A stretch of DNA of 45,701 bases from a virus, in the IMG/VR virus record IMGVR_UViG_3300044625_002374, positions 1-45,701 of that record. One strand, written 5' to 3'. Made by a program: the position numbers and the translations under genes. The first letter of the stretch is position 1. Each line of letters opens with the position of its first letter. The notes under the pieces are model-generated. The model was not told the origin of the DNA and did no database searches. It saw nothing but the letters and a program-made list of their open reading frames with translations. Below are positions 36,909-45,534 of this stretch, in pieces.

Positions 36909-36938
36909 ACTTAACATAAAGTATATTTGACCTGTCAC
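36909..36938 (-). promoter_or_regulatory. Weak member of the GTGCAAA-N17 promoter class
   Basis: On the minus strand GTGACAG (36938-36932) is followed by exactly 17 bases and TTAAGT (36914-36909). Both boxes deviate from the class, but the spacer matches. It lies about 40 bases before the mini-lipoprotein ATG. Confidence 0.3.
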
Positions 36939-36969: not shown

Positions 36970-38313
36970 TCAACCGGTTGCGGATTTCAGATACGTATCA
37001 CCTGCAGAGACCACCCGCGGGTCGACGTCCCTAACGTCTCGTTCACGGATGAAAACAGGAAACCTGACCTTACCGTCGCGAGTCAACCCATCCCCAGTCA
37101 AAGGATCAGGTTGTCCCTCCATCTCGACCACCCGGCCGATCCATGAATCAGGATCCAGGTTGATCTCAGACTTCATCTTGTCGGTGAATCCACCCGCGAC
37201 TCGGGTCACCACACCATTCGGCAACACGACCTCAAATCCACCCCATAACCCTTCACGTTTCGATCCCCTCCGACCTTCATAGTGACCCACGATAATTGCT
37301 TCATATGTTGCCACTGGTTTCATCTTCCGAATATTAGAAGACCTTTTAAAGAGGTACGGAGACCCAAGGTCCTTCAACATGACACCTTCATACCCTGCAT
37401 CGGTGTCGGCAAGATACACTTCTAACAGTTCGGCTTCATTCTTCACAAGGCGACCTGGAACCTGGACGACTGCAGGATTACCAACCTTTCCCACCAATTC
37501 AGACACAAGTTCTACTCGGCTCTCTAGGTCCAAGGTGGACTCTTGGTCCCTCCAATCAGAGAACGGTAGGGCGTCAAACACATGGAAGATCATGTTCGAA
37601 TCGTCCTTGCCTTTCTTATGAGACATCACGACCGAAGCAGACTCATTCCAATCTGCACCAAGTGCTTCCCCATCGAGGACGAAGTCATCCCAAGGGACAT
37701 TCTCTAGCATGGACTTGATTCGAGGCAATGTTTCAAGAACGTTTCCGTTCCGGGTGAACATGGTAACTTCTCCACCATGTTTCACGGCCACGCAACGGAG
37801 ACCATCTAGTTTGGGTTCAACTCTGATGGGATACGTTACCTGATCTTCAATAACGATTCCTCTACCTTCCTCGTACCGGGTCGACAGGCTCTCGGCAAGT
37901 TGAACGGAGAATCCAACAATGGATCCCGGCCAAACCTTGTTGACCGTGGTCGACTGGACACCACATCGTAGGTTCTTCAGGAGGATCCTGAGGCACCACT
38001 TCTGTTGAGAATGGGTCATTCCTCCGAAGATGTACTGAACAAAATCCTTTGCTGCGTTTCCGGTCTTCTTCCGGGTCGCAAGGTTCTCGTAAATTTCATC
38101 AAGGAATTGTTCAACAACGGCGTCATCGTCACCTTGACCCTCAGCCGGCGGCATCTTGAACTTGTTCACATAGAAGTTGAGGTACGGATCCCCAACTGCA
38201 ACAAAGACTCGTTTGAGAAGTTCATTCTTCTTGTGGTGATCAAGAAGTTCTTCCTTGAATAGACGAGAATTGTTGGACTCTAGCTGTTCTAGAATATCGA
38301 TGATGGATGGCAT
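36970..38313 (-). CDS. ATP-dependent DNA ligase
   Basis: This 447-residue enzyme joins nicks using ATP. Nucleotidyltransferase motifs in order: motif I EPKLDGLR with the adenylated Lys K168, FTRNGN (187-192), motif III FVLDGEALG with E216, motif IV EGVMLKD (309-315), and motif V RKMKP with K330 and K332. An OB-fold follows, ending with GDGLTRDGKVRFPVFIRERD. The length is close to that of T4 ligase (487). The start is ATG 38313, only six bases after the -10 box, so the mRNA should begin at the start codon. The gene has its own promoter (38320-38349), whose -35 box abuts the stop codon of the upstream gene. Confidence 0.92.
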   Translation of the reverse strand: MPSIIDILEQLESNNSRLFKEELLDHHKKNELLKRVFVAVGDPYLNFYVNKFKMPPAEGQGDDDAVVEQFLDEIYENLATRKKTGNAAKDFVQYIFGGMTHSQQKWCLRILLKNLRCGVQSTTVNKVWPGSIVGFSVQLAESLSTRYEEGRGIVIEDQVTYPIRVEPKLDGLRCVAVKHGGEVTMFTRNGNVLETLPRIKSMLENVPWDDFVLDGEALGADWNESASVVMSHKKGKDDSNMIFHVFDALPFSDWRDQESTLDLESRVELVSELVGKVGNPAVVQVPGRLVKNEAELLEVYLADTDAGYEGVMLKDLGSPYLFKRSSNIRKMKPVATYEAIIVGHYEGRRGSKREGLWGGFEVVLPNGVVTRVAGGFTDKMKSEINLDPDSWIGRVVEMEGQPDPLTGDGLTRDGKVRFPVFIRERDVRDVDPRVVSAGDTYLKSATG

Positions 38314-38319
38314 GAATAC

Positions 38320-38349
38320 ACTTTACCACATCCTATGATCGATTTGCAC
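38320..38349 (-). promoter_or_regulatory. GTGCAAA-N17-TAAAGT promoter of the ligase gene
   Basis: GTGCAAA (38349-38343), 17 bases, TAAAGT (38325-38320), then six bases to the ATG at 38313. Predicted +1 is the A of the ATG. The box directly follows the TGA stop of the gene ending at 38350 (TGAGTGCAAA). Confidence 0.75.
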
Positions 38350-38646
38350 TCATTCCCAATAATCTTTTTTAAACTCTTGTTTCATCTCTTCAACGATTGT
38401 TGAAATTTTTTCAATCGCATTTTTGATCACAACACCGTCCCTTGTTGGATCTGTGAGTTTTAGAGATTCGATGGATCTTACAATATCACTAAGCGTAGAC
38501 GCGTTTTCGATTGTCTTCATTGCTCTACGTCTCTTCTCTACAGTCCAAGAATCTTTCTTGTTATTAGATTGCCTTATATCAGCAGAGTGACTCATCGCGA
38601 CATCAGGCTTTTTTTGTTCGACCTCATAAACAACTACTCTCTTCAT
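38350..38646 (-). CDS. Helical protein of unknown function
   Basis: This 98-residue protein is charged and mainly helical after residue 35 (TVEKRRRAMKTIENASTLSD and DGVVIKNAIEKISTIVEEMK). No cysteines, signal or membrane segment are visible, and I recognise no family. Its ATG overlaps the last base of the upstream gene's stop codon, so it is the final gene of the sigma operon. It might regulate or accompany the sigma factors, but only position suggests this. Confidence 0.65.
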   Translation of the reverse strand: MKRVVVYEVEQKKPDVAMSHSADIRQSNNKKDSWTVEKRRRAMKTIENASTLSDIVRSIESLKLTDPTRDGVVIKNAIEKISTIVEEMKQEFKKDYWE

Positions 38647-39098
38647 TAAACTTCCCCTTTAACTTCAGAAACAAGATGATTTTTTTTGATTCGCTTGCGT
38701 TGCTTCTTTGACTGTGATTTACTAACTGTAACCATAGCTTCCTGAAGAACAATAGAAACTTCTTTCTCTCCAGACTCTTCTGTGACAGAAATCTGAGGTT
38801 GTAGATCTTTAAAGTTATCTTCAACATCAAGCTCTGGATTTCCAGTAGATTCTGCAATTACAATTGGTGGTGGAACAACCACTACACCTGCCGAAGGATT
38901 AGAAATGTAATGGTCAACACATTCGATGAAAGATCCCTGATTCGGTGTTAGAACTCCTAGACGTTTGCAAACGCCGTCCAGACCTTCATAAGTTGTGATT
39001 CCACGATCCTTCATGAACTGATTCAATGTTGACTTTCGACGCCGTAGCAAATCTTCGAGTCGAATCTGTGACTTCTGTTGATATTTTGTGGCTTTCAT
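38646..39098 (-). CDS. Protein of unknown function, helical head and basic tail
   Basis: This 150-residue protein has a helical, basic N-terminal third (RLEDLLRRRKSTLNQFMKDR, then YEGLDGVCKRLGVLTPNQ) that could form a small DNA- or protein-binding domain. A Pro/Val stretch (VVVVPPPIV) follows, then an acidic middle, and a very basic C-terminus (KSQSKKQRKRIKKNH). Its ATG directly follows the TGA of the preceding gene. It lies in the sigma operon right after the region-4-like protein. No family recognised. Confidence 0.65.
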   Translation of the reverse strand: MKATKYQQKSQIRLEDLLRRRKSTLNQFMKDRGITTYEGLDGVCKRLGVLTPNQGSFIECVDHYISNPSAGVVVVPPPIVIAESTGNPELDVEDNFKDLQPQISVTEESGEKEVSIVLQEAMVTVSKSQSKKQRKRIKKNHLVSEVKGEV

Positions 39099-39383
39099 TC
39101 AGCACTTCCTGACGGCTTCAATGTCCTGTAGCAATTCAGCAATACCGCTCTGAAACATTGGAGACCTAGCAACGTTTTCCAAGCCTTCTTCGGACATGTT
39201 GACTCCGTATTGATCGGTAATTGCTTCTGCGAACTTTCTCATGACTCGCAACACGTAATTCCTTGCAGAGGAATGATTCATTTTATATCCGATCTCAGTC
39301 ATTGTATCGGCAATATCGCGATAATTTACGCCATCATCAACTGTTGCATATCCGGTGTCAAACTTTTTTCCTTTTTTCATCAT
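39099..39383 (-). CDS. Small helix-turn-helix protein resembling sigma region 4.2
   Basis: This 94-residue protein has a helix-turn-helix at about residues 19-53: NYRDIADTMTEIGYKMNHSS followed by ARNYVLRVMRKFAEAI. The layout echoes sigma region 4.2 (TLEEIG...VTRERVRQIE...LRKLR), including an R-x-x-V-x-x-x-x-R-K-x-A run in the recognition helix. The rest is helical (SEEGLENVARSPMFQSGIAE). It is encoded two genes after an RpoD-like sigma that lacks exactly this part, in the same operon, so it may supply the missing -35-binding module. The resemblance is by eye; it could instead be an ordinary phage DNA-binding protein. Confidence 0.6.
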   Translation of the reverse strand: MMKKGKKFDTGYATVDDGVNYRDIADTMTEIGYKMNHSSARNYVLRVMRKFAEAITDQYGVNMSEEGLENVARSPMFQSGIAELLQDIEAVRKC

Positions 39384-39386
39384 GTT

Positions 39387-39644
39387 TCAATCATCCTTAC
39401 TGGGGTTATTAATGAACTGAACGTGTCGACGTCCCATCTTAGGGGCAAAATTCGACGTCTGTAACACCCTCAACCTTCGATTCAAATCTTCTTCAACTTT
39501 CTCCAATGTTTGAACAGGAGGAGATGAATTCGTCGAATCTTCAGTTTGTCGCTGTTCCATCATCAACTTCTTAATACGAAAATGATTTAAAAAATTACCC
39601 AATAAATTTAATGCTGATAATCCTAAAATGATTTGCAAAATCAT
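39387..39644 (-). CDS. Small membrane protein with cytoplasmic tail
   Basis: This 85-residue protein starts with a hydrophobic stretch at residues 1-18 ([18 protein letters not shown]), followed by basic residues (RIKKL) and a helical polar tail ([20 protein letters not shown]). It should be anchored in the inner membrane by its N-terminus with the tail in the cytoplasm. Its ATG overlaps the sigma gene's stop (AATGA), so it is translated with it. A membrane protein next to a sigma factor recalls anti-sigma arrangements, but no anti-sigma motif is visible. Confidence 0.65.
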
Positions 39645-40474
39645 TTTAATCCTTGGCCTGATTCAACCATCTCTAGTTCTTGGGAGGACATGTTGTATGA
39701 ATCATCTTCAAGAACATCATCCACCAATCCAAAGCGAAGTCGAAGAATTGCAGCTTCTTTAGAACTCAATTGTTCCAAGACGCCTCGCGCAACTTCCATC
39801 ATCTGTTGAGAAGAAATCATTTCAAGAGGATTAAGATTTTTGTCATCGACCAATCGATCTTCCAAAGTATCAGAACCAGCTTCTCCTGACAAAGGTTGAT
39901 CTAGAGAAACGATGTGCCGTCCGGCAAAATGTGTTGCATTAAACACAGCATCTGAAGTGCCGGTCATCTCCTTCAATTCTTCTACGGTTGGATCGACACC
40001 CATCATCTGCCGATATTCCGCCGCGGCGGCGGACATTTTTTTCTGCGCACTTACAGCGTGTGCAGACATGCGAATGATTCGTTTCCGCTTCAGAATGTAT
40101 TGACCGATTGCCTGCTTCACCCACCACGTTGCATATGTTGAAAAACGAAATCCTTTCTTCCAATCGAACTTTTCGATTGACTTCATTAGCCCGAGGTTTC
40201 CTTCTTGAATCAAGTCCTCAAGAGGAATGTTATATCCTCTATAGTTTTTAGCGATGTACACGACAAGACGAAGATTAGATTCTACAAGCTTCTTCTTCGC
40301 CTTTACTGCAGCAACGCCTCCTGACTCATATTCTTTAAAAAGTTCCACCATGTCTGGATGAGACAGTTGAGGATATCTTTTTAATGACGTCAGATAATTT
40401 GCCATTACGCTTTTATCATCGTCGGTCATCCTAAGCCGTTTGGCCGGCCGAGCATTTGATTTCGCTAATTGCAT
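39641..40474 (-). CDS. RpoD-like sigma factor lacking region 4.2
   Basis: This 277-residue protein is a clear sigma-70 family member. Region 1.2 is at 22-52, region 2 at 60-125 with [39 protein letters not shown] and [13 protein letters not shown], and region 3 at about 126-190. Region 4.1 is recognisable in [18 protein letters not shown] (236-253). Then the protein ends in an acidic tail ([20 protein letters not shown]) where the -35-binding helix-turn-helix should be. I start it at ATG 40474 ([10 protein letters not shown]), with GGAG about 10 bases upstream, rather than at 40504. It would direct RNA polymerase to phage promoters, probably with a partner providing -35 contacts. Confidence 0.85.
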
Positions 40475-40475
40475 T

Positions 40476-40820
40476 TCAGTTCTTCTCCAGCGTCGCTGAA
40501 ACATTGTTCAACCACGCTGCATGTGCAGTTCGTCGAGATGACCGAAGCTGCATTTCTTGTTGAACATAACACAACTCGACTTCCCAAGGATACGGGTTCA
40601 GGTTGAATCGAGTCACGCGGTTAATTGAATCAGACAATGATCGACCAAGATTATGAAGCGTCTCGTCATCCATCACAGCGATGTAATCTCGATCGATCTG
40701 CTCAGGATATTGAACAGGATAATCACCGCGATCGGAGCCCCCGGCGTTGCGGTTCATGGTCATCTCGTAGCTCTCGTTAGTCTCAACTTCGTTCATGTGC
40801 TTGTTCTTTTTCTTACCCAT
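40476..40820 (-). CDS. Unknown protein heading the sigma operon
   Basis: This 114-residue protein is hydrophilic with a Lys-rich start ([18 protein letters not shown]) and a C-terminal half with Trp and Cys ([20 protein letters not shown]). No family is recognised and no membrane segment is present. It ends one base before the sigma start. Its ribosome binding site AGGAGG is 18 bases from the ATG, too far in a straight line, with a small GNRA hairpin in between; an internal ATG at residue 9 is an alternative start. It is the first gene after the promoter at 40851-40880. Confidence 0.7.
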
Positions 40821-40844
40821 TTTGTTTTTGCCTTTCGGCCTCCT
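40821..40844 (-). promoter_or_regulatory. Ribosome binding site with hairpin spacer
   Basis: AGGAGG (40844-40839) is followed by GCC-GAAA-GGC, sharing its last G, a three-base stem with a GNRA loop, and then an A-rich stretch before the ATG at 40820. Folding would bring the site to normal distance. Structured spacers of this type are known from T-even phage genes. Confidence 0.45.
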
Positions 40845-40850
40845 CTTTCT

Positions 40851-40880
40851 ATTGTATCAGGTTACGTTTTTACTTTGCAC
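40851..40880 (-). promoter_or_regulatory. GTGCAAA-N17-TACAAT promoter of the sigma operon
   Basis: GTGCAAA (40880-40874), 17 bases, TACAAT (40856-40851). The -10 is preceded by TGA, close to an extended -10. Unlike the ligase and UvdE promoters, it leaves a ~24-base leader with a ribosome binding site. It would drive the operon 40820 to 38350, so the sigma factor may control its own synthesis. Confidence 0.75.
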
Positions 40881-40907
40881 CGCAATTGCGATGAAAACTT
40901 ATAATCA

Positions 40908-41849
40908 TCATTTCAACGGAATGCCAAACTTCTTCGACATATCAAATACTGCGAGATTCTTTTGTTTCGCTTCGACTTCAACATCAATCTTACGATCACG
41001 TAAGAACTTCAGCTGGGCATCAGGAACATAGTGAATCATGTCACTGTGCTTCCTGCGATCCGGGAAAGAACCACTTTCTTTTCCAGGCTCTGTATTGCTG
41101 ATATGTTGCAACGGCAAAATCTCGCCGTGCCATGTTTCCATCGTGGCTTCAATAGCTTCTTCCATCGAAAGATCATCTGGATTGAAAACATGATGATGTG
41201 AATCGAACACAATAGGAACAGAAGTTTGCTTGTGAATATTGAGCAAATCGATGACAGAGTATGCGCTCTCGTCATTTTCCAACGTTAATCGACAACGAAC
41301 ATCATCATCCAATTCATCGATTCTCCGCGACAGTTGTTCAGCTCGATCTGATTTTCCACCATGAATGTTGATTGCATACCTCGGAGTTCGATCCAACCCC
41401 ATCATGTCAAACATCCAGCCATGAATCTTTAATTCAGTAATTGCCTTTTGTACAACATTATCTGAGTCTGATGACAACACGCAGAATTGACCTGGGTGCG
41501 TTGTGACTCGTAAGTTATTATCTTTGATGACCTTACCTGCTTGAGAAAGCAAATTCACGAGCCGCTCGTTACCTTGCCACAGACTTACATCGACTTGGTC
41601 TGCAAGTGGAAACATTGCAGAAGAAATTCGAAATAGTCCGATGCCGGCTTTCACGATTCGCGGCAACATTTCTATAAGAGCAGAAACGTTGTGTTCATAA
41701 GTTCCGGAAATCTGATCGGAAGTATATTTTCCTGTTCGATACCTACCCAACTGCAACGTTCTCTCGTCCATTGCATTGTAGAATTCAGTACGACCAGATC
41801 GAGGAAGAGTACGTTCGTCAAGCCAGTGACAACAAATACCTAAAGCCAT
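40908..41849 (-). CDS. uvsE: UV-damage endonuclease (UvdE/UvsE)
   Basis: This 313-residue enzyme nicks DNA beside UV photoproducts and is a TIM-barrel metal enzyme. Family motifs in order: GLFRISSAMFPL (71-82), THPGQF (117-122), INIHGGKSDRAEQ (160-172), LTLENDE (188-194), VFDSHHH (214-220), and later KHSDMIHYV with H268 and H273, and E291 in DVEVEAKQKN. These supply the expected His, Glu and Asp metal ligands. The length matches bacterial UvsE. The start at ATG 41849 lies nine bases after the -10 box, leaving two or three leader bases at most. Together with the ligase it suggests phage repair of damaged DNA. Confidence 0.93.
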   Translation of the reverse strand: MALGICCHWLDERTLPRSGRTEFYNAMDERTLQLGRYRTGKYTSDQISGTYEHNVSALIEMLPRIVKAGIGLFRISSAMFPLADQVDVSLWQGNERLVNLLSQAGKVIKDNNLRVTTHPGQFCVLSSDSDNVVQKAITELKIHGWMFDMMGLDRTPRYAINIHGGKSDRAEQLSRRIDELDDDVRCRLTLENDESAYSVIDLLNIHKQTSVPIVFDSHHHVFNPDDLSMEEAIEATMETWHGEILPLQHISNTEPGKESGSFPDRRKHSDMIHYVPDAQLKFLRDRKIDVEVEAKQKNLAVFDMSKKFGIPLK

Positions 41850-41858
41850 ATGATTGTA

Positions 41859-41888
41859 ACTTTACCTTGTTTCAACCCTAGTTTGCAC
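41859..41888 (-). promoter_or_regulatory. GTGCAAA-N17-TAAAGT promoter of the UvdE gene
   Basis: GTGCAAA (41888-41882), 17 bases, TAAAGT (41864-41859), identical in both boxes to the ligase promoter. It also directly follows a TGA stop (TGAGTGCAAA) of the gene ending at 41889. The ATG is nine bases from the -10. Confidence 0.78.
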
Positions 41889-42161
41889 TCAACTAATGAT
41901 GTTTAAATCGTTCACCGAAACAATCGTCGATCCACGATGACACATCACTTTGTAGAAAGGTACTGCGGTCATATTATAATGTACAAGACCCATGACAACA
42001 ACGACTTCGCCGGCCCACTCATGCTTGAAAAGACCGTTTATGTACGGTTTTACAATAGCCAAAGTTCCTATTGGAACTTCGTTATGTTCTAAAGTATTCT
42101 TCGATCCCCATGAGTGAACAGGAGGAGGAGGAATTGATCCAGAAGGAATGACAGAAACCAT
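41889..42161 (-). CDS. Small beta-rich protein of unknown function
   Basis: This 90-residue protein opens with a Pro/Ser stretch (SGSIPPPPVHSWGSK), then a beta-rich core (PIGTLAIVKPYINGLFKHEW, then AGEVVVVMGLVHYN) that resembles small SH3-like barrels such as KOW-type domains. The layout resembles the 72-residue protein at 44842. No catalytic residues are visible. It ends immediately before the UvdE promoter and starts five bases after the HAD gene, so both belong to one unit. Confidence 0.6.
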   Translation of the reverse strand: MVSVIPSGSIPPPPVHSWGSKNTLEHNEVPIGTLAIVKPYINGLFKHEWAGEVVVVMGLVHYNMTAVPFYKVMCHRGSTIVSVNDLNIIS

Positions 42162-42166
42162 CTCAT

Positions 42167-42760
42167 CTACCCTGTCCTTACCATGACAGTCTTAATCTTA
42201 ACGTTTTTTATTCCACGAAGATTGTCTCTCAAAGCCCTTACGGCCATGATGTTCTTCGCCGCATCATCATAAAATGTAACTTCACTGATGTCATCCCTAG
42301 ACAAAACTTCATCCTTAATTACATTCGCTTTTGCCTCAGGATCGCTGGTCCCAACTGCGAAGATTCGGATTTCAGGAATTCCTTGAGAATTAAGAAACTC
42401 TCTCACTGGAACTGAATTCCCACGGGCGGTCAATATAAAAACATTGTCTATCCCAGAATCTCTAATGGATTTCATGAGATTCAGCATCATCGGCTTAACA
42501 GGTTCAGGTTCAATTACTTGTTCAAAATCAGAATAATCAAAAACGTCTCCGTGCTGTCTCTTGTACTGCGCATACTCTCTCGGGGTCAGACTTCTCTTAG
42601 CTTCATTACCGACCTCATCTCGAGACGTCAAGTATATCTTGGATTTTGTTTTCACCAACGTATCATCAAAGTCGAAAACATGAATTTCGCTCCCACGGGA
42701 ATCCTGTTCGGCCAATAACCGACCCAACACCCGCAACTCAATGTCATCCATGTATTTCAT
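42167..42760 (-). CDS. HAD-superfamily phosphatase
   Basis: This 197-residue enzyme has all four HAD motifs: motif I HVFDFDDTLVKT with nucleophile D30 and acid D32, motif II ILTARG with T111, a motif III Lys near K145, and motif IV VTFYDDAAKN with D165 and D166. The layout, with a short C1 cap and a FYDD ending, is close to phage and bacterial phosphatases acting on nucleotides or nucleic-acid ends. The exact substrate is unknown; a nucleic-acid 3'-phosphatase role would fit with ligase and UvdE nearby. It starts 12 bases after the VWA gene. Confidence 0.82.
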   Translation of the reverse strand: MKYMDDIELRVLGRLLAEQDSRGSEIHVFDFDDTLVKTKSKIYLTSRDEVGNEAKRSLTPREYAQYKRQHGDVFDYSDFEQVIEPEPVKPMMLNLMKSIRDSGIDNVFILTARGNSVPVREFLNSQGIPEIRIFAVGTSDPEAKANVIKDEVLSRDDISEVTFYDDAAKNIMAVRALRDNLRGIKNVKIKTVMVRTG

Positions 42761-42772
42761 ACAAATGGTATA

Positions 42773-44107
42773 TCAATCTACCCGGGTTATACACCCCGCG
42801 GTCATCCTAACTTCTTTTGCAATCGATTTCGATTCAATACAGGTCTCAGGACACAACATGACAGTGTTCGACACCTTGTCATAATAAAATTCGTCATTTG
42901 CACCAGTACAAAAAGCTTGACCGGCAACAGGATGCAACGAGATTATCTCTCCATCAATCGTTTCAACTTCGACCTGAACAGTAGACACGTCAACTGCACC
43001 TTTCGTTCCTCCTGTTGGAATTTCAACAGTGCACACTGTCGACGTAATAGAATCAATAGAAGAAGCTATCTTCTCAAACACAACATCAAATTCAGCTGCC
43101 TGACACACAGGGTATCGTAACCCACCAGTCATTTTGCTCAACCACTGGTAAGATTGCCCAGCTGCGACAGCAATCGAACATGTATCATCAACAATTCCTT
43201 CAGACGGTGTGAATAAATCTTCAGGCTTGCCCAAAGGATCAATCACAATTCCATTGTCACTGTCAACAGCATTCGGCTTCTCAAGAAGACCAACAATGCT
43301 ATAAAAAGCATAATTTCTCTGGTCTTTTGTCCCAAATTGCTCCGGAGACAATTTCAACAATGCCTTGTCCCACTCTAACGCCGTGATCTGACCCCCAAGA
43401 GATGAATTATAGTCATTAAATAACTTCTTGCCCTTTGAAGAATTCTGATCAGGATACCACGTGCATGCAGACATGTCATCTGTCACTTCAATGAATATCT
43501 TAAATGCAGACTTCCTCAACCACTTCATCCATCCATCAGGAGCTAAACCATACTGGTCTGGACGATTGTTTGTAGCAAACAACGTATCCAAAATGATGCA
43601 CAGCGAATCATTGCTCTGCACATCATAGCTGTAATGATAAAACTTGCCAGGATTGTTTCCAGGAGGTGAACCACCAGACAACTTTGCACAGCCTCCCTTT
43701 GGAATAGTGCTCAACGGCGCCTCAATACAAACAGAATTATAAAGAGTAAATCCAGCACCACCATGCGCAACAATCATGATAACTCGATAATCTAATCCAG
43801 CCTTATCCATCACCTCAGCAAAGTGTTCATTAATGTTATTCTCAATCAACTCCAATTCTTCGGTCATCGACCCAGAATCATCAATAACGAAGATAACATC
43901 AACAGGCCGTGATGTCGATATGTCTATAGCATGAGAATCAATGCAAGTTTCTTGGGAAGTTCCTCCACCAAATCCGGTAAGATCTCCACCCCCACCAACA
44001 CCTGACGAATTCAAAATAGATGCCGCGGCCGTGCATGCACCTATTACCGCAAGGAAAGAAATACCAACTAACCCTAACCTACCATGATGTCCTGTAGTTC
44101 CAATCAT
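42773..44107 (-). CDS. Secreted VWA-domain lipoprotein
   Basis: This 444-residue protein starts with a signal segment (GRLGLVGISFLAVIGAC) whose lipobox would lipidate C25. A Gly/Ser linker follows (SSGVGGGGDLTGFGGG), then a von Willebrand A domain with its metal site VIDDSGSMTEE (D76, S78, S80). The rest has paired cysteines and a C-terminal beta domain. Such proteins are typical of envelope and secreted proteins of Myxococcota and rare in phages. I start it at ATG 44107, with AGG seven bases upstream, over GTG 44113. It may bind metal and a partner on the infected cell's surface. It follows two other genes of one operon, one of them another lipoprotein. Confidence 0.75.
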   Translation of the reverse strand: MIGTTGHHGRLGLVGISFLAVIGACTAAASILNSSGVGGGGDLTGFGGGTSQETCIDSHAIDISTSRPVDVIFVIDDSGSMTEELELIENNINEHFAEVMDKAGLDYRVIMIVAHGGAGFTLYNSVCIEAPLSTIPKGGCAKLSGGSPPGNNPGKFYHYSYDVQSNDSLCIILDTLFATNNRPDQYGLAPDGWMKWLRKSAFKIFIEVTDDMSACTWYPDQNSSKGKKLFNDYNSSLGGQITALEWDKALLKLSPEQFGTKDQRNYAFYSIVGLLEKPNAVDSDNGIVIDPLGKPEDLFTPSEGIVDDTCSIAVAAGQSYQWLSKMTGGLRYPVCQAAEFDVVFEKIASSIDSITSTVCTVEIPTGGTKGAVDVSTVQVEVETIDGEIISLHPVAGQAFCTGANDEFYYDKVSNTVMLCPETCIESKSIAKEVRMTAGCITRVD

Positions 44108-44164
44108 GTTCACGCCTGAACATAAATAGGTAATTAAGAATAATTTTTAAAATTTATCTTGTGT

Positions 44165-44416
44165 TCACTGGCAAGGTTTAGATGGGGTCTCATGAGTTTC
44201 AGTGATCGCGTTCGTCGTCACCGTCTGATTAGCCTCATCTAACTTTGTCGTAACCTGAAGACTTGTCGTCTTCATGCCTGTTTCTTCACAAGGGGAAGCA
44301 ACAATCTTTACCGGCGTTGGCGGGGGTGATTCTACAGTCGTCGGTTCAAATCTTCCAAGATCATATCGATAGGAACACCCAAACAGCATAGCACAGAAAA
44401 AAGTCAATTTTTTCAT
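44165..44416 (-). CDS. Small lipoprotein
   Basis: This 83-residue protein has a lipoprotein signal, KKLTFFCAMLFGCSYRYDLG, with C14 as the lipidated residue. The mature part is Thr/Pro/Glu-rich (TTVESPPPTPVK) and carries two more Cys, one near the middle and one at the end (SKPCQ), which could form a disulphide. I place the start at ATG 44416; an in-frame TTG at 44422 would add two residues. It lies in the operon that also holds the VWA lipoprotein, so both likely act at the cell envelope. No family recognised. Confidence 0.65.
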   Translation of the reverse strand: MKKLTFFCAMLFGCSYRYDLGRFEPTTVESPPPTPVKIVASPCEETGMKTTSLQVTTKLDEANQTVTTNAITETHETPSKPCQ

Positions 44417-44418
44417 GA

Positions 44419-44676
44419 TCAATCCGTAGGCGTCTTTTTCTTCGATTCTTTCTCGGCCATCTCTGCAACGCTGCGAATCAAATCAAACATCTGAACGTTA
44501 AGATCTTCTGCGTTCTTCAAAATCTTTGACGTCGAAGAACTCAAACTTGGCGCGCCACTGGAAATGTCTGTTCGCAAAAGATTAATTTCACGATTTACCC
44601 AATCTCGAAGATTGGAAATCATCGTATCATGATGCGACCAAGTATCAGATTTCGATTTAGTGTTTTTGCTCATCAT
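44419..44676 (-). CDS. Helical protein of unknown function
   Basis: This 85-residue protein is helical and mildly coiled-coil-like (HHDTMISNLRDWVNREINLL, then EDLNVQMFDLIRSVAEMAEK). The start is ATG 44676, which overlaps the TGA of the 41-residue gene (ATGA) and has GGAG seven bases upstream; an in-frame TTG at 44691 is less likely. It ends two bases before the lipoprotein ATG. It has no signal or membrane segment, so it likely stays in the cytoplasm. No family recognised. Confidence 0.65.
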   Translation of the reverse strand: MMSKNTKSKSDTWSHHDTMISNLRDWVNREINLLRTDISSGAPSLSSSTSKILKNAEDLNVQMFDLIRSVAEMAEKESKKKTPTD

Positions 44677-44798
44677 AGTTCTCCCTTCCAAGACTTCTTT
44701 GGATTATTAATTCGCTTCTTTCGACGGTCTTTCATACCAATGGATCCAACATGGCGTTTATTCATTGCAGAAACAAAGGAATTTCGAATGTTCTTCAT
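44673..44798 (-). CDS. Small basic protein, 41 residues
   Basis: ATG 44798 opens 41 codons to TGA 44675-44673. The product is very basic (MKNIRNSFVSAMNKRHVG, then MKDRRKKRINNPKK). The start lies exactly six bases after the -10 box, so the mRNA would begin at the ATG, and the stop overlaps the next gene's start (ATGA). Position, coupling and the promoter argue it is real. If the leaderless reading is wrong, translation could begin at an internal ATG. Confidence 0.6.
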   Translation of the reverse strand: MKNIRNSFVSAMNKRHVGSIGMKDRRKKRINNPKKSWKGEL

Positions 44799-44804
44799 AA
44801 TCTT

Positions 44805-44834
44805 ATTCTATAACTTTTAGTATGGTCTTTGCAC
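44805..44834 (-). promoter_or_regulatory. GTGCAAA-N17-TAGAAT promoter of the lipoprotein operon
   Basis: GTGCAAA (44834-44828), 17 bases, TAGAAT (44810-44805). Six bases separate the -10 from ATG 44798, as at the ligase gene. It would drive the genes from 44798 to about 41889. Confidence 0.72.
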
Positions 44835-44841
44835 TCTTTGG

Positions 44842-45060
44842 TTACATTGCTAACTTTAAATTTGTGTAATGGATTAAACCCTGCTTGCCTCGAGGAGATA
44901 ACAATTTAACCCACCCTGTGTCTGTCACTTCACAAATAACGGTAGCAATTTCTCCATTAACAAGATGATCAACTGCATCATCCAATTCATCGGTCCAAAC
45001 TATCGTTGACTTAAAATTTCTTCCAATCACAAGTTCGCCCGGGCAATATGACGTCTTCAT
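44842..45060 (-). CDS. Small beta-rich protein, possible SH3-like fold
   Basis: This 72-residue protein starts at ATG 45060, which overlaps the TGA of the zinc-finger gene (ATGA); a longer in-frame ORF up to 45180 would overlap that gene heavily. The core (GEIATVICEVTDTGWVKLLS, then PRGKQGLIHYTNLKLAM) has the turn pattern of small SH3-like domains, and resembles the 90-residue protein at 41889. Many T4-like phages carry short proteins of this style with no known role. No cysteine motif or signal. Confidence 0.6.
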   Translation of the reverse strand: MKTSYCPGELVIGRNFKSTIVWTDELDDAVDHLVNGEIATVICEVTDTGWVKLLSPRGKQGLIHYTNLKLAM

Positions 45061-45389
45061 GCACGTCCCTTGTGATTCGTGGCTGTGGATTGGGTTACGG
45101 TCGTGAACTTGACATTGGGGGTACGTTTTTGATAGCCCATCTGACAACTTTTCCCTACCATCATTCCGGAATTGACCCAAAATGCCTGGCGATATTCTTC
45201 TCTGTCAGCATGTGACTCAAATTTTAGGACAGTTAAGCTTGCTTGCTTGCCGTCACCGGCGGACAGACCAAGATACTTGACAGCAGGCTCATCGCTGCAA
45301 TCGGGACAAGTATTGATCCGTCCGCCGGCCATCCGCTTCGCAAGTGAATTGGGGTCAAAGAACCCTCCGCAAACAATACAATCTCGCAT
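45057..45389 (-). CDS. Zinc-ribbon protein
   Basis: This 110-residue protein begins with a Zn-ribbon: CIVCGGFF (C4, C7) and TCPDCSDE (C28, C31), two C-x-x-C knuckles 20 residues apart. The rest is mixed and unassigned. GGAG about 8 bases before the ATG is the ribosome binding site. It lies 26 bases after the tRNA-Lys on the same strand, so a read-through transcript from the tRNA promoter could carry it. It may bind nucleic acid or RNA polymerase, as many small phage zinc ribbons do. Confidence 0.65.
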   Translation of the reverse strand: MRDCIVCGGFFDPNSLAKRMAGGRINTCPDCSDEPAVKYLGLSAGDGKQASLTVLKFESHADREEYRQAFWVNSGMMVGKSCQMGYQKRTPNVKFTTVTQSTATNHKGRA

Positions 45390-45415
45390 GTTTGTGTCTC
45401 CTAAGTTTTAGTTTC

Positions 45416-45491
45416 TGGTGGGTCCGGTGGGGTACGATCCCACAACCTAACGCTTAAAAGGCGTGTACTCTACCAATTGAGTTACGGACCC
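45416..45491 (-). tRNA. trnK: tRNA-Lys (UUU) with encoded CCA
   Basis: The minus strand folds as a full tRNA: acceptor GGGTCCG pairs with CGGACCC, the D arm contains AATTGGTAGAG, the anticodon arm is CACGC-CTTTTAA-GCGTT with anticodon TTT, and the T arm is GTGGG-ATCGTAC-CCCAC. The discriminator A is followed by an encoded CCA. All stems pair without gaps. UUU suits an AT-rich genome that uses AAA Lys codons heavily. It has its own promoter at 45505-45534. Confidence 0.95.
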
Positions 45492-45504
45492 TTAGGTTAT
45501 TCTT

Positions 45505-45534
45505 AATATACCATGCAAAGACTGCACTTTACAC
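45505..45534 (-). promoter_or_regulatory. GTGTAAA-N17-TATATT promoter of tRNA-Lys
   Basis: GTGTAAA (45534-45528) differs by one base from the class -35 box; after 17 bases comes TATATT (45510-45505), 13 bases before the tRNA. The -10 is preceded by GG, as in the ligase and UvdE promoters. Confidence 0.65.

Follow-up and report, generated by a model that had tools for sequence, protein, structure and literature searches.

Phages without an RNA polymerase of their own often encode sigma homologues, which likely act at phage-specific promoters, as summarized in a 2026 review (PMC13282480). The late sigma of phage T4 has been termed a split sigma, its two parts being gp55 and gp33; of these, gp33 is not a DNA reader, and the late promoters lack a -35 element (PMC2988020). 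T4 middle promoters carry a MotA box (wwwTGCTTtA) located around -30 and 12 bp away from the -10 box (PMC2988021). SigO-RsoA of Bacillus subtilis is a two-subunit sigma factor (PMC10141391). In a survey of 224 jumbo phages, single helix-turn-helix (HTH) 'minimal' sigmas and RpoD-like sigmas appear in group 2 phages as two types, and an ancestral relic is suggested for the minimal type (PMC7824862). Here we describe a promoter class, GTGCAAA(G)-N17-TAnnnT, and a truncated RpoD-like sigma factor encoded behind one of its members, in a 45,701-nucleotide stretch of viral DNA (IMG/VR record IMGVR_UViG_3300044625_002374, positions 1 to 45,701; hereafter, the window). The window is probably a fragment of a larger genome; relatives of its sigma factor lie on contigs of up to 278 kb, and those of a 94-amino-acid (aa) protein encoded next to it on contigs of up to 369 kb.

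The original prediction placed the same pair of boxes, separated by 17 bases, upstream of five minus-strand units of the window: a DNA ligase, the sigma operon, the UV endonuclease UvdE, a lipoprotein unit and a tRNA-Lys. Scanning both strands for GTGYAAA-N17-TANANT, we found exactly these five sites, all on the minus strand and at the predicted coordinates, with no further match, while 100 dinucleotide shuffles of the window gave a mean of 0.09 matches and a maximum of 2. The sequences of both boxes (Table 1; GTGCAAA four times, GTGTAAA once) are also as predicted. When the spacer was varied from 10 to 25 bases, 17 gave five matches and any other length zero or one. Because the pattern had been picked post hoc from the data, an independent test matters here. 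We therefore scored the window with a weight matrix built from related phages, from which the window and near-identical contigs had been excluded. The five sites took the top five ranks (18.0–22.7 bits), and the sixth-ranked place scored -2.5 bits. Since orthologous genes of more distant relatives contributed sites to the matrix, the agreement is a cross-check rather than a wholly independent sample. A 'sixth, weaker copy' that had been suggested at 36909-36938 (GTGACAG...TTAAGT) scored -22.5 bits under the same matrix and was rejected as a member of the class.

In the window and its relatives alike, the class has the layout of a sigma-70-type promoter, with a TAnnnT -10 box and a -35 element about 17 bp away. 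The -35 element itself departs from the TTGACA consensus: GTGCAAA or GTGTAAA stands at all five sites of the window, with TGCAAA in the hexamer slot. It differs from the MotA box both in sequence and in spacing (17 versus about 12 bp from the -10 box), and the presence of a strict -35 box sets these promoters apart from T4 late promoters. The claim of a recurring class whose -35 box differs from TTGACA, from MotA boxes and from T4 late boxes is thus borne out. Promoters of the TTGACA/TATAAT type show no clear enrichment, with 6 matches versus 7 in the reversed control for the window and 25 versus 14 for the 278-kb relative G013.

The class was found in 10 of 14 related records, and the excess of gene-start matches over controls seen in the window (5 versus 0.09) extends to these phages. 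Strict matches number 22 in G013, 13 in G010 and 19 in G006 (35.6 kb), and the reversed pattern, used as a control in the phage records, gave zero. The spacing is equally strict: at 17 bases there are 22 matches in G013 versus 0–2 at other lengths, 19 versus 0–1 in G006, and 11 versus 0–2 at the end of G010. With TAnnnT allowed as the -10 box, G013 contains 44 sites, 36–37 of them within 51–76 kb and often 200–600 bp apart. A matrix scan of this contig, whose own sites helped to train the matrix, gave 43 matches and none above threshold on the reversed sequence. When the pattern was combined with a start codon, matches appeared in 19 of 20 further records (reversed pattern, 0), some of which encode sigmas only ~50% identical to that of the window. 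Conversely, the promoter pattern alone retrieved 10 viral records, seven of which encode the truncated sigma; the other three are contigs of 18–73 kb. The consensus of 119 distinct sites reads (C)(A/G)GTGCAAAGT...TATACT, followed by six bases such as AGGACC and then ATG. Unbiased comparison of k-mers ahead of genes that lie outside the G013 array revealed no clear second promoter class; it returned words resembling ribosome-binding sites together with GTGCAAA (8 versus 0, in a set to which the sites of the window belong). GTGCAAA(G)-N17-TAnnnT, often with TGn ahead of the -10 box, is almost certainly a phage-specific promoter class shared across a clade of uncultured jumbo phages.

A further regularity, overlooked in the original prediction, is the fixed distance between the -10 box and the start codon. 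The -10 box and the ATG are exactly 6 nt apart at 34 of the 44 G013 sites, 27 of the 38 in G006 and all 18 at the end of G010, and the reading frames opened in this way are mostly 50–435 codons long. In the window, the ligase and lipoprotein units follow the same rule. We obtained a footprint of the ligase promoter from 45 upstream regions that had been chosen by protein homology only and share less than 80% identity. Conservation is highest at -36 to -31 (GTGCAA), -15/-14 (TG), -12/-11 and -7 (TA...T), -1 (C) and the ATG, and most spacer positions are free. TGCAAA therefore occupies the -35 hexamer slot (-35 to -30), followed by 17 bp and an extended -10 element (TGn), which had likewise escaped the original prediction. 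A -10 box normally ends 6–7 nt ahead of the transcription start. Since it ends here 6 nt before the ATG, transcription should begin on the A of the start codon, and promoters of this class likely produce leaderless mRNAs. Leaderless mRNAs are common in mycobacteria, where transcription also starts at the start codon (PMC4633059); in these phages, by contrast, the prediction covers dozens of genes, every one behind a separate promoter of a single class. We also noted that, among genes of at least 150 aa in G013 (L076-L089), Shine-Dalgarno-like words stand at the first start of 54 of 224 long open reading frames (ORFs), versus 17 in the control window. Given this scarcity, Shine-Dalgarno-free translation may be common in G013 beyond the arrays.

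One of the five promoters precedes the gene for a sigma factor that lacks the part expected to read a -35 box, and relatives encode that part separately; neither point was part of the original prediction. Region 4.2 is the part of a sigma factor that reads the -35 box. The window sigma matches region 2 (PF04542, E-value 1.4e-22) and weakly region 3, with no region 4 match in that search. It matches RpoD_Cterm only over positions 1–194 of 238 and Sigma70_r4 only over 1–18 of 50, so the chain holds no complete region 4. In all relatives' sigmas that were aligned the cut falls at the same point, and the Sigma70_r4 positions inside the sigma gene are 1–18, or 1–31 at most. A Sigma70_r4 search of ten large contigs located the complementary piece in nine of them as a separate small ORF (up to positions 12–49, E-values 3.5e-10 to 4.7e-9). 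It lies ~40 kb from the sigma gene in G010 and G013, and 67 kb from it in G018, the nearest record with both pieces, which has a sigma 80% identical to that of the window. The two proteins cover adjoining stretches of known sigmas: on the phage sigma profile phrog_351 the truncated sigma covers 464–690 and the small protein 692–725, and on Mycobacterium smegmatis SigA (5tw1) they cover 228–422 and 422–454, with the cut at residue 422. An AlphaFold model of the sigma was of modest confidence (pLDDT 73.5, pTM 0.44) and was not used as evidence.

The small protein has four conserved cysteines followed by GPxTLQxIGxIYxLTRMRICQIEK, and its recognition helix, TRMRICQIEK, is identical in 20 of 20 loci. 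Compared with the SigA helix (TRERIRQIES), E is replaced by M and R by C. The altered positions correspond to two that contact -35 bases in E. coli sigma-70 (E585 and R588), and a changed -35 specificity is therefore expected. The constancy of the helix over 20 loci may be linked to the constancy of the box core. As to the polymerase itself, no beta-subunit gene was found in the 10 large contigs; this speaks against a phage-encoded RNA polymerase as the reader and makes the host enzyme the likely engine. Eight of the 10 large contigs have a single region 2 sigma match. A second sigma-like gene, apparently complete, occurs in G033 (the contig of L180) at 132927-133568 on the minus strand, as one 237-aa frame with region 2 and region 4 matches. 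The region 4.2 gene has no GTGCAAA promoter; in two distant relatives (L183, ~1329-1370; L193, ~2951-2985) its upstream sequences share GAACAATGTA, with TATAAAC ~18 bases later, perhaps another promoter class.

Compared with the systems introduced above, this arrangement resembles T4 gp55/gp33 in that two phage proteins would share sigma function on the host polymerase, the first sigma-2-like and the second in the place of sigma region 4. It differs in that the first piece is RpoD-like and retains regions 2 and 3, and the second is a recognizable region 4.2 with a helix-turn-helix. Like SigO-RsoA, it would be a sigma factor of two polypeptides; going by the descriptions, the two are set apart by the bacterial origin of SigO-RsoA and, in the phages, by a cut inside region 4 and a second piece with four conserved cysteines. 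As at T4 middle promoters (MotA/AsiA), a phage box replaces the -35 element while TGn and the -10 box are kept, but the box is GTGCAAA at 17 bp from the -10 box. The 'minimal' sigmas of group 2 jumbo phages are, by description, also stand-alone sigma HTH proteins in jumbo phages without their own RNA polymerase; neither complementary halves nor a cognate promoter is reported in the accessible text of that survey (PMC7824862). A literature text search for GTGCAAA promoters returned nothing relevant, and we found no report of the complementary halves, this promoter or the leaderless arrays in the open-access literature, which is weak evidence of absence. Neither the region 4.2 protein nor the 94-aa protein had a match in 50,697 GenBank phage records.

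Overall, we suggest, with a probability of roughly 0.62, that a split phage sigma riding on host RNA polymerase reads the GTGCAAA promoters and that their transcripts are largely leaderless. The truncated sigma (regions 2–3) would recognize TGn and the -10 box, and the small protein, through its changed region 4.2 helix, would recognize GTGCAAA, with both pieces bound to the host enzyme. Most members of the class elsewhere, and two of the five in the window, have 6 nt between the -10 box and the ATG, which would place the transcription start on the A of that codon and yield a leaderless mRNA; a single promoter geometry would thereby set both transcription start and translation start. Since the sigma operon itself lies behind such a promoter, the system would be self-amplifying. 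For the broader statement, that a split sigma with a detached and re-specified region 4.2 drives dozens of mostly single-gene leaderless transcripts throughout a widespread uncultured jumbo clade, we consider the odds about even.

The box could also be read by a different phage protein. In a sigma appropriation of the kind known from T4 middle transcription, a DNA-binding protein such as the 94-aa neighbour would bind GTGCAAA in place of region 4, leaving only TGn and the -10 box to a phage or host sigma. In each of 84 tabulated loci the gene for the 94-aa protein lies downstream of that for the truncated sigma. The protein's MNHSSARN segment does not vary among 53 sequences, as expected of a conserved DNA reader, and MotA provides a precedent in which a box replaces the -35 element and TGn and the -10 box are kept (PMC2988021). 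However, a MotA box has its centre at -30 and leaves 12 bp to the -10 box; GTGCAAA fills the canonical -35 position, and its 17-bp spacing is strict. Moreover, a genuine region 4.2 that completes the truncated sigma is encoded separately in nine of ten large contigs, and the all-helical AlphaFold model of the 94-aa protein (pLDDT 82) has no significant structural match in Foldseek. We regard this alternative as unlikely. The 94-aa protein was also considered as the missing region 4 itself and rejected, as it has no sigma match by profile search or Foldseek and the true region 4.2 is located elsewhere; the protein stays a candidate cofactor, or even a candidate box reader.

Somewhat less probable still is that host RNA polymerase with its own primary sigma suffices, the phages having copied GTGCAAA, a -35 variant of the host, to obtain a strong early promoter. 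Short genes in dense arrays do resemble an early region, early genes of polymerase-less phages normally use host sigma, and the array part of G013 has a GC content of 0.55–0.58 (10-kb windows) versus mostly 0.32–0.47 in the remainder. Yet primary sigmas read TTGACA, and the box is unchanged across phages from different samples whose sigmas are only ~50% identical. In two bacterial phyla, represented by 388 and 301 genomes, the motif followed by ATG is essentially absent: with two phage-contig bins set aside, it occurs once in each of four of the 687 genomes. A scan of 84,980 species genomes returned four stretches on three small contigs of metagenome bins, and these contigs bear phage-like arrays. 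Since the motif within those bins is confined to small contigs, we assigned no host. The small array-bearing contigs (L096, L097, L098 and L099) were binned as Gammaproteobacteria, Proteobacteria and Candidatus Aquidulcis but look like phage DNA in the wrong bins. Finally, the motif might be a repressor operator or a translation signal, since densely repeated phage sites can serve as operators and many array copies carry AAGGA, similar to a ribosome-binding site, in the spacer. This is very improbable: the ligase footprint keeps two boxes at sigma-factor spacing around a largely unconstrained spacer, one site stands before a tRNA gene, whose transcript is not translated, and the order -35, 17 bp, -10, 6 nt and ATG fits promoter geometry.

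Several points weigh against a split sigma with leaderless transcripts. The whole case is built on sequence. The region 4.2 gene was not found in the 45.7-kb window, and the Sigma70_r4 search gave no clear region 4.2 piece in G030. Three of the five window sites (UvdE, tRNA-Lys and the sigma operon; Table 1) do not count as leaderless under a strict 6-nt rule. The 94-aa protein, a second conserved candidate DNA-binding protein in the sigma operon, could read the box in place of region 4.2. If the array genes are expressed first, the split sigma must enter with the virion, or host sigma must start them.

The features of the window are collected in Table 1. In the leader of the sigma operon, the GAAA loop of the hairpin is kept in relatives while the stem changes (for example, ACC/GGT), and the hairpin may thus control translation of the operon. 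The first gene of the lipoprotein unit encodes 41 aa and is predicted to be leaderless. At 42773-44113 on the minus strand, a 446-aa phage-encoded protein has the appearance of a lipoprotein with a von Willebrand-A domain (VIFVIDDSGSM).

Table 1. Promoters of the GTGCAAA class and associated genes in the window
Feature	Position	Strand	Description	Basis
DNA ligase promoter	38320..38349	-	GTGCAAA-N17-TAAAGT, 6 nt, ATG at 38313; predicted leaderless	pattern, matrix, ligase footprint
Sigma operon promoter	40851..40880	-	GTGCAAA-N17-TACAAT, then 30-nt leader with AGGAGG	pattern, matrix
UvdE promoter	41859..41888	-	GTGCAAA-N17-TAAAGT, ATG 9 nt downstream (relatives: 6–9 nt)	pattern, matrix
Lipoprotein unit promoter	44805..44834	-	GTGCAAA-N17-TAGAAT, 6 nt, ATG at 44798; predicted leaderless	pattern, matrix
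tRNA-Lys promoter	45505..45534	-	GTGTAAA-N17-TATATT, 13 nt upstream of tRNA	pattern, matrix
ATP-dependent DNA ligase	36970..38313	-	behind class promoter	
94-aa protein	39099..39383	-	conserved, all-helical, invariant MNHSSARN; candidate cofactor	
Truncated RpoD-like sigma	39641..40474	-	277 aa; regions 2-3 and first 18 of 50 Sigma70_r4 positions, without region 4.2	
114-aa protein	40476..40820	-	first gene of sigma operon	
Sigma operon leader	40821..40850	-	AGGAGG overlapping GCC-GAAA-GGC hairpin (-4.8 kcal/mol)	
UvdE UV endonuclease	40908..41849	-	behind class promoter	
tRNA-Lys (TTT)	45416..45491	-	behind class promoter	

Few split sigmas are known, and the second part of the T4 one has ceased to read DNA. 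In the jumbo phages described here, a separate part with a DNA-reading fold co-occurs with a strict -35 box other than TTGACA, and the question of why phages encode sigma domains 2 and 4 apart thereby becomes directly testable. From the fixed distance between the -10 box and the ATG, an entire block of phage genes is predicted to be expressed without leaders, a point relevant to how such phages capture host ribosomes. The arrangement also provides a simple signature by which this clade can be found and annotated.

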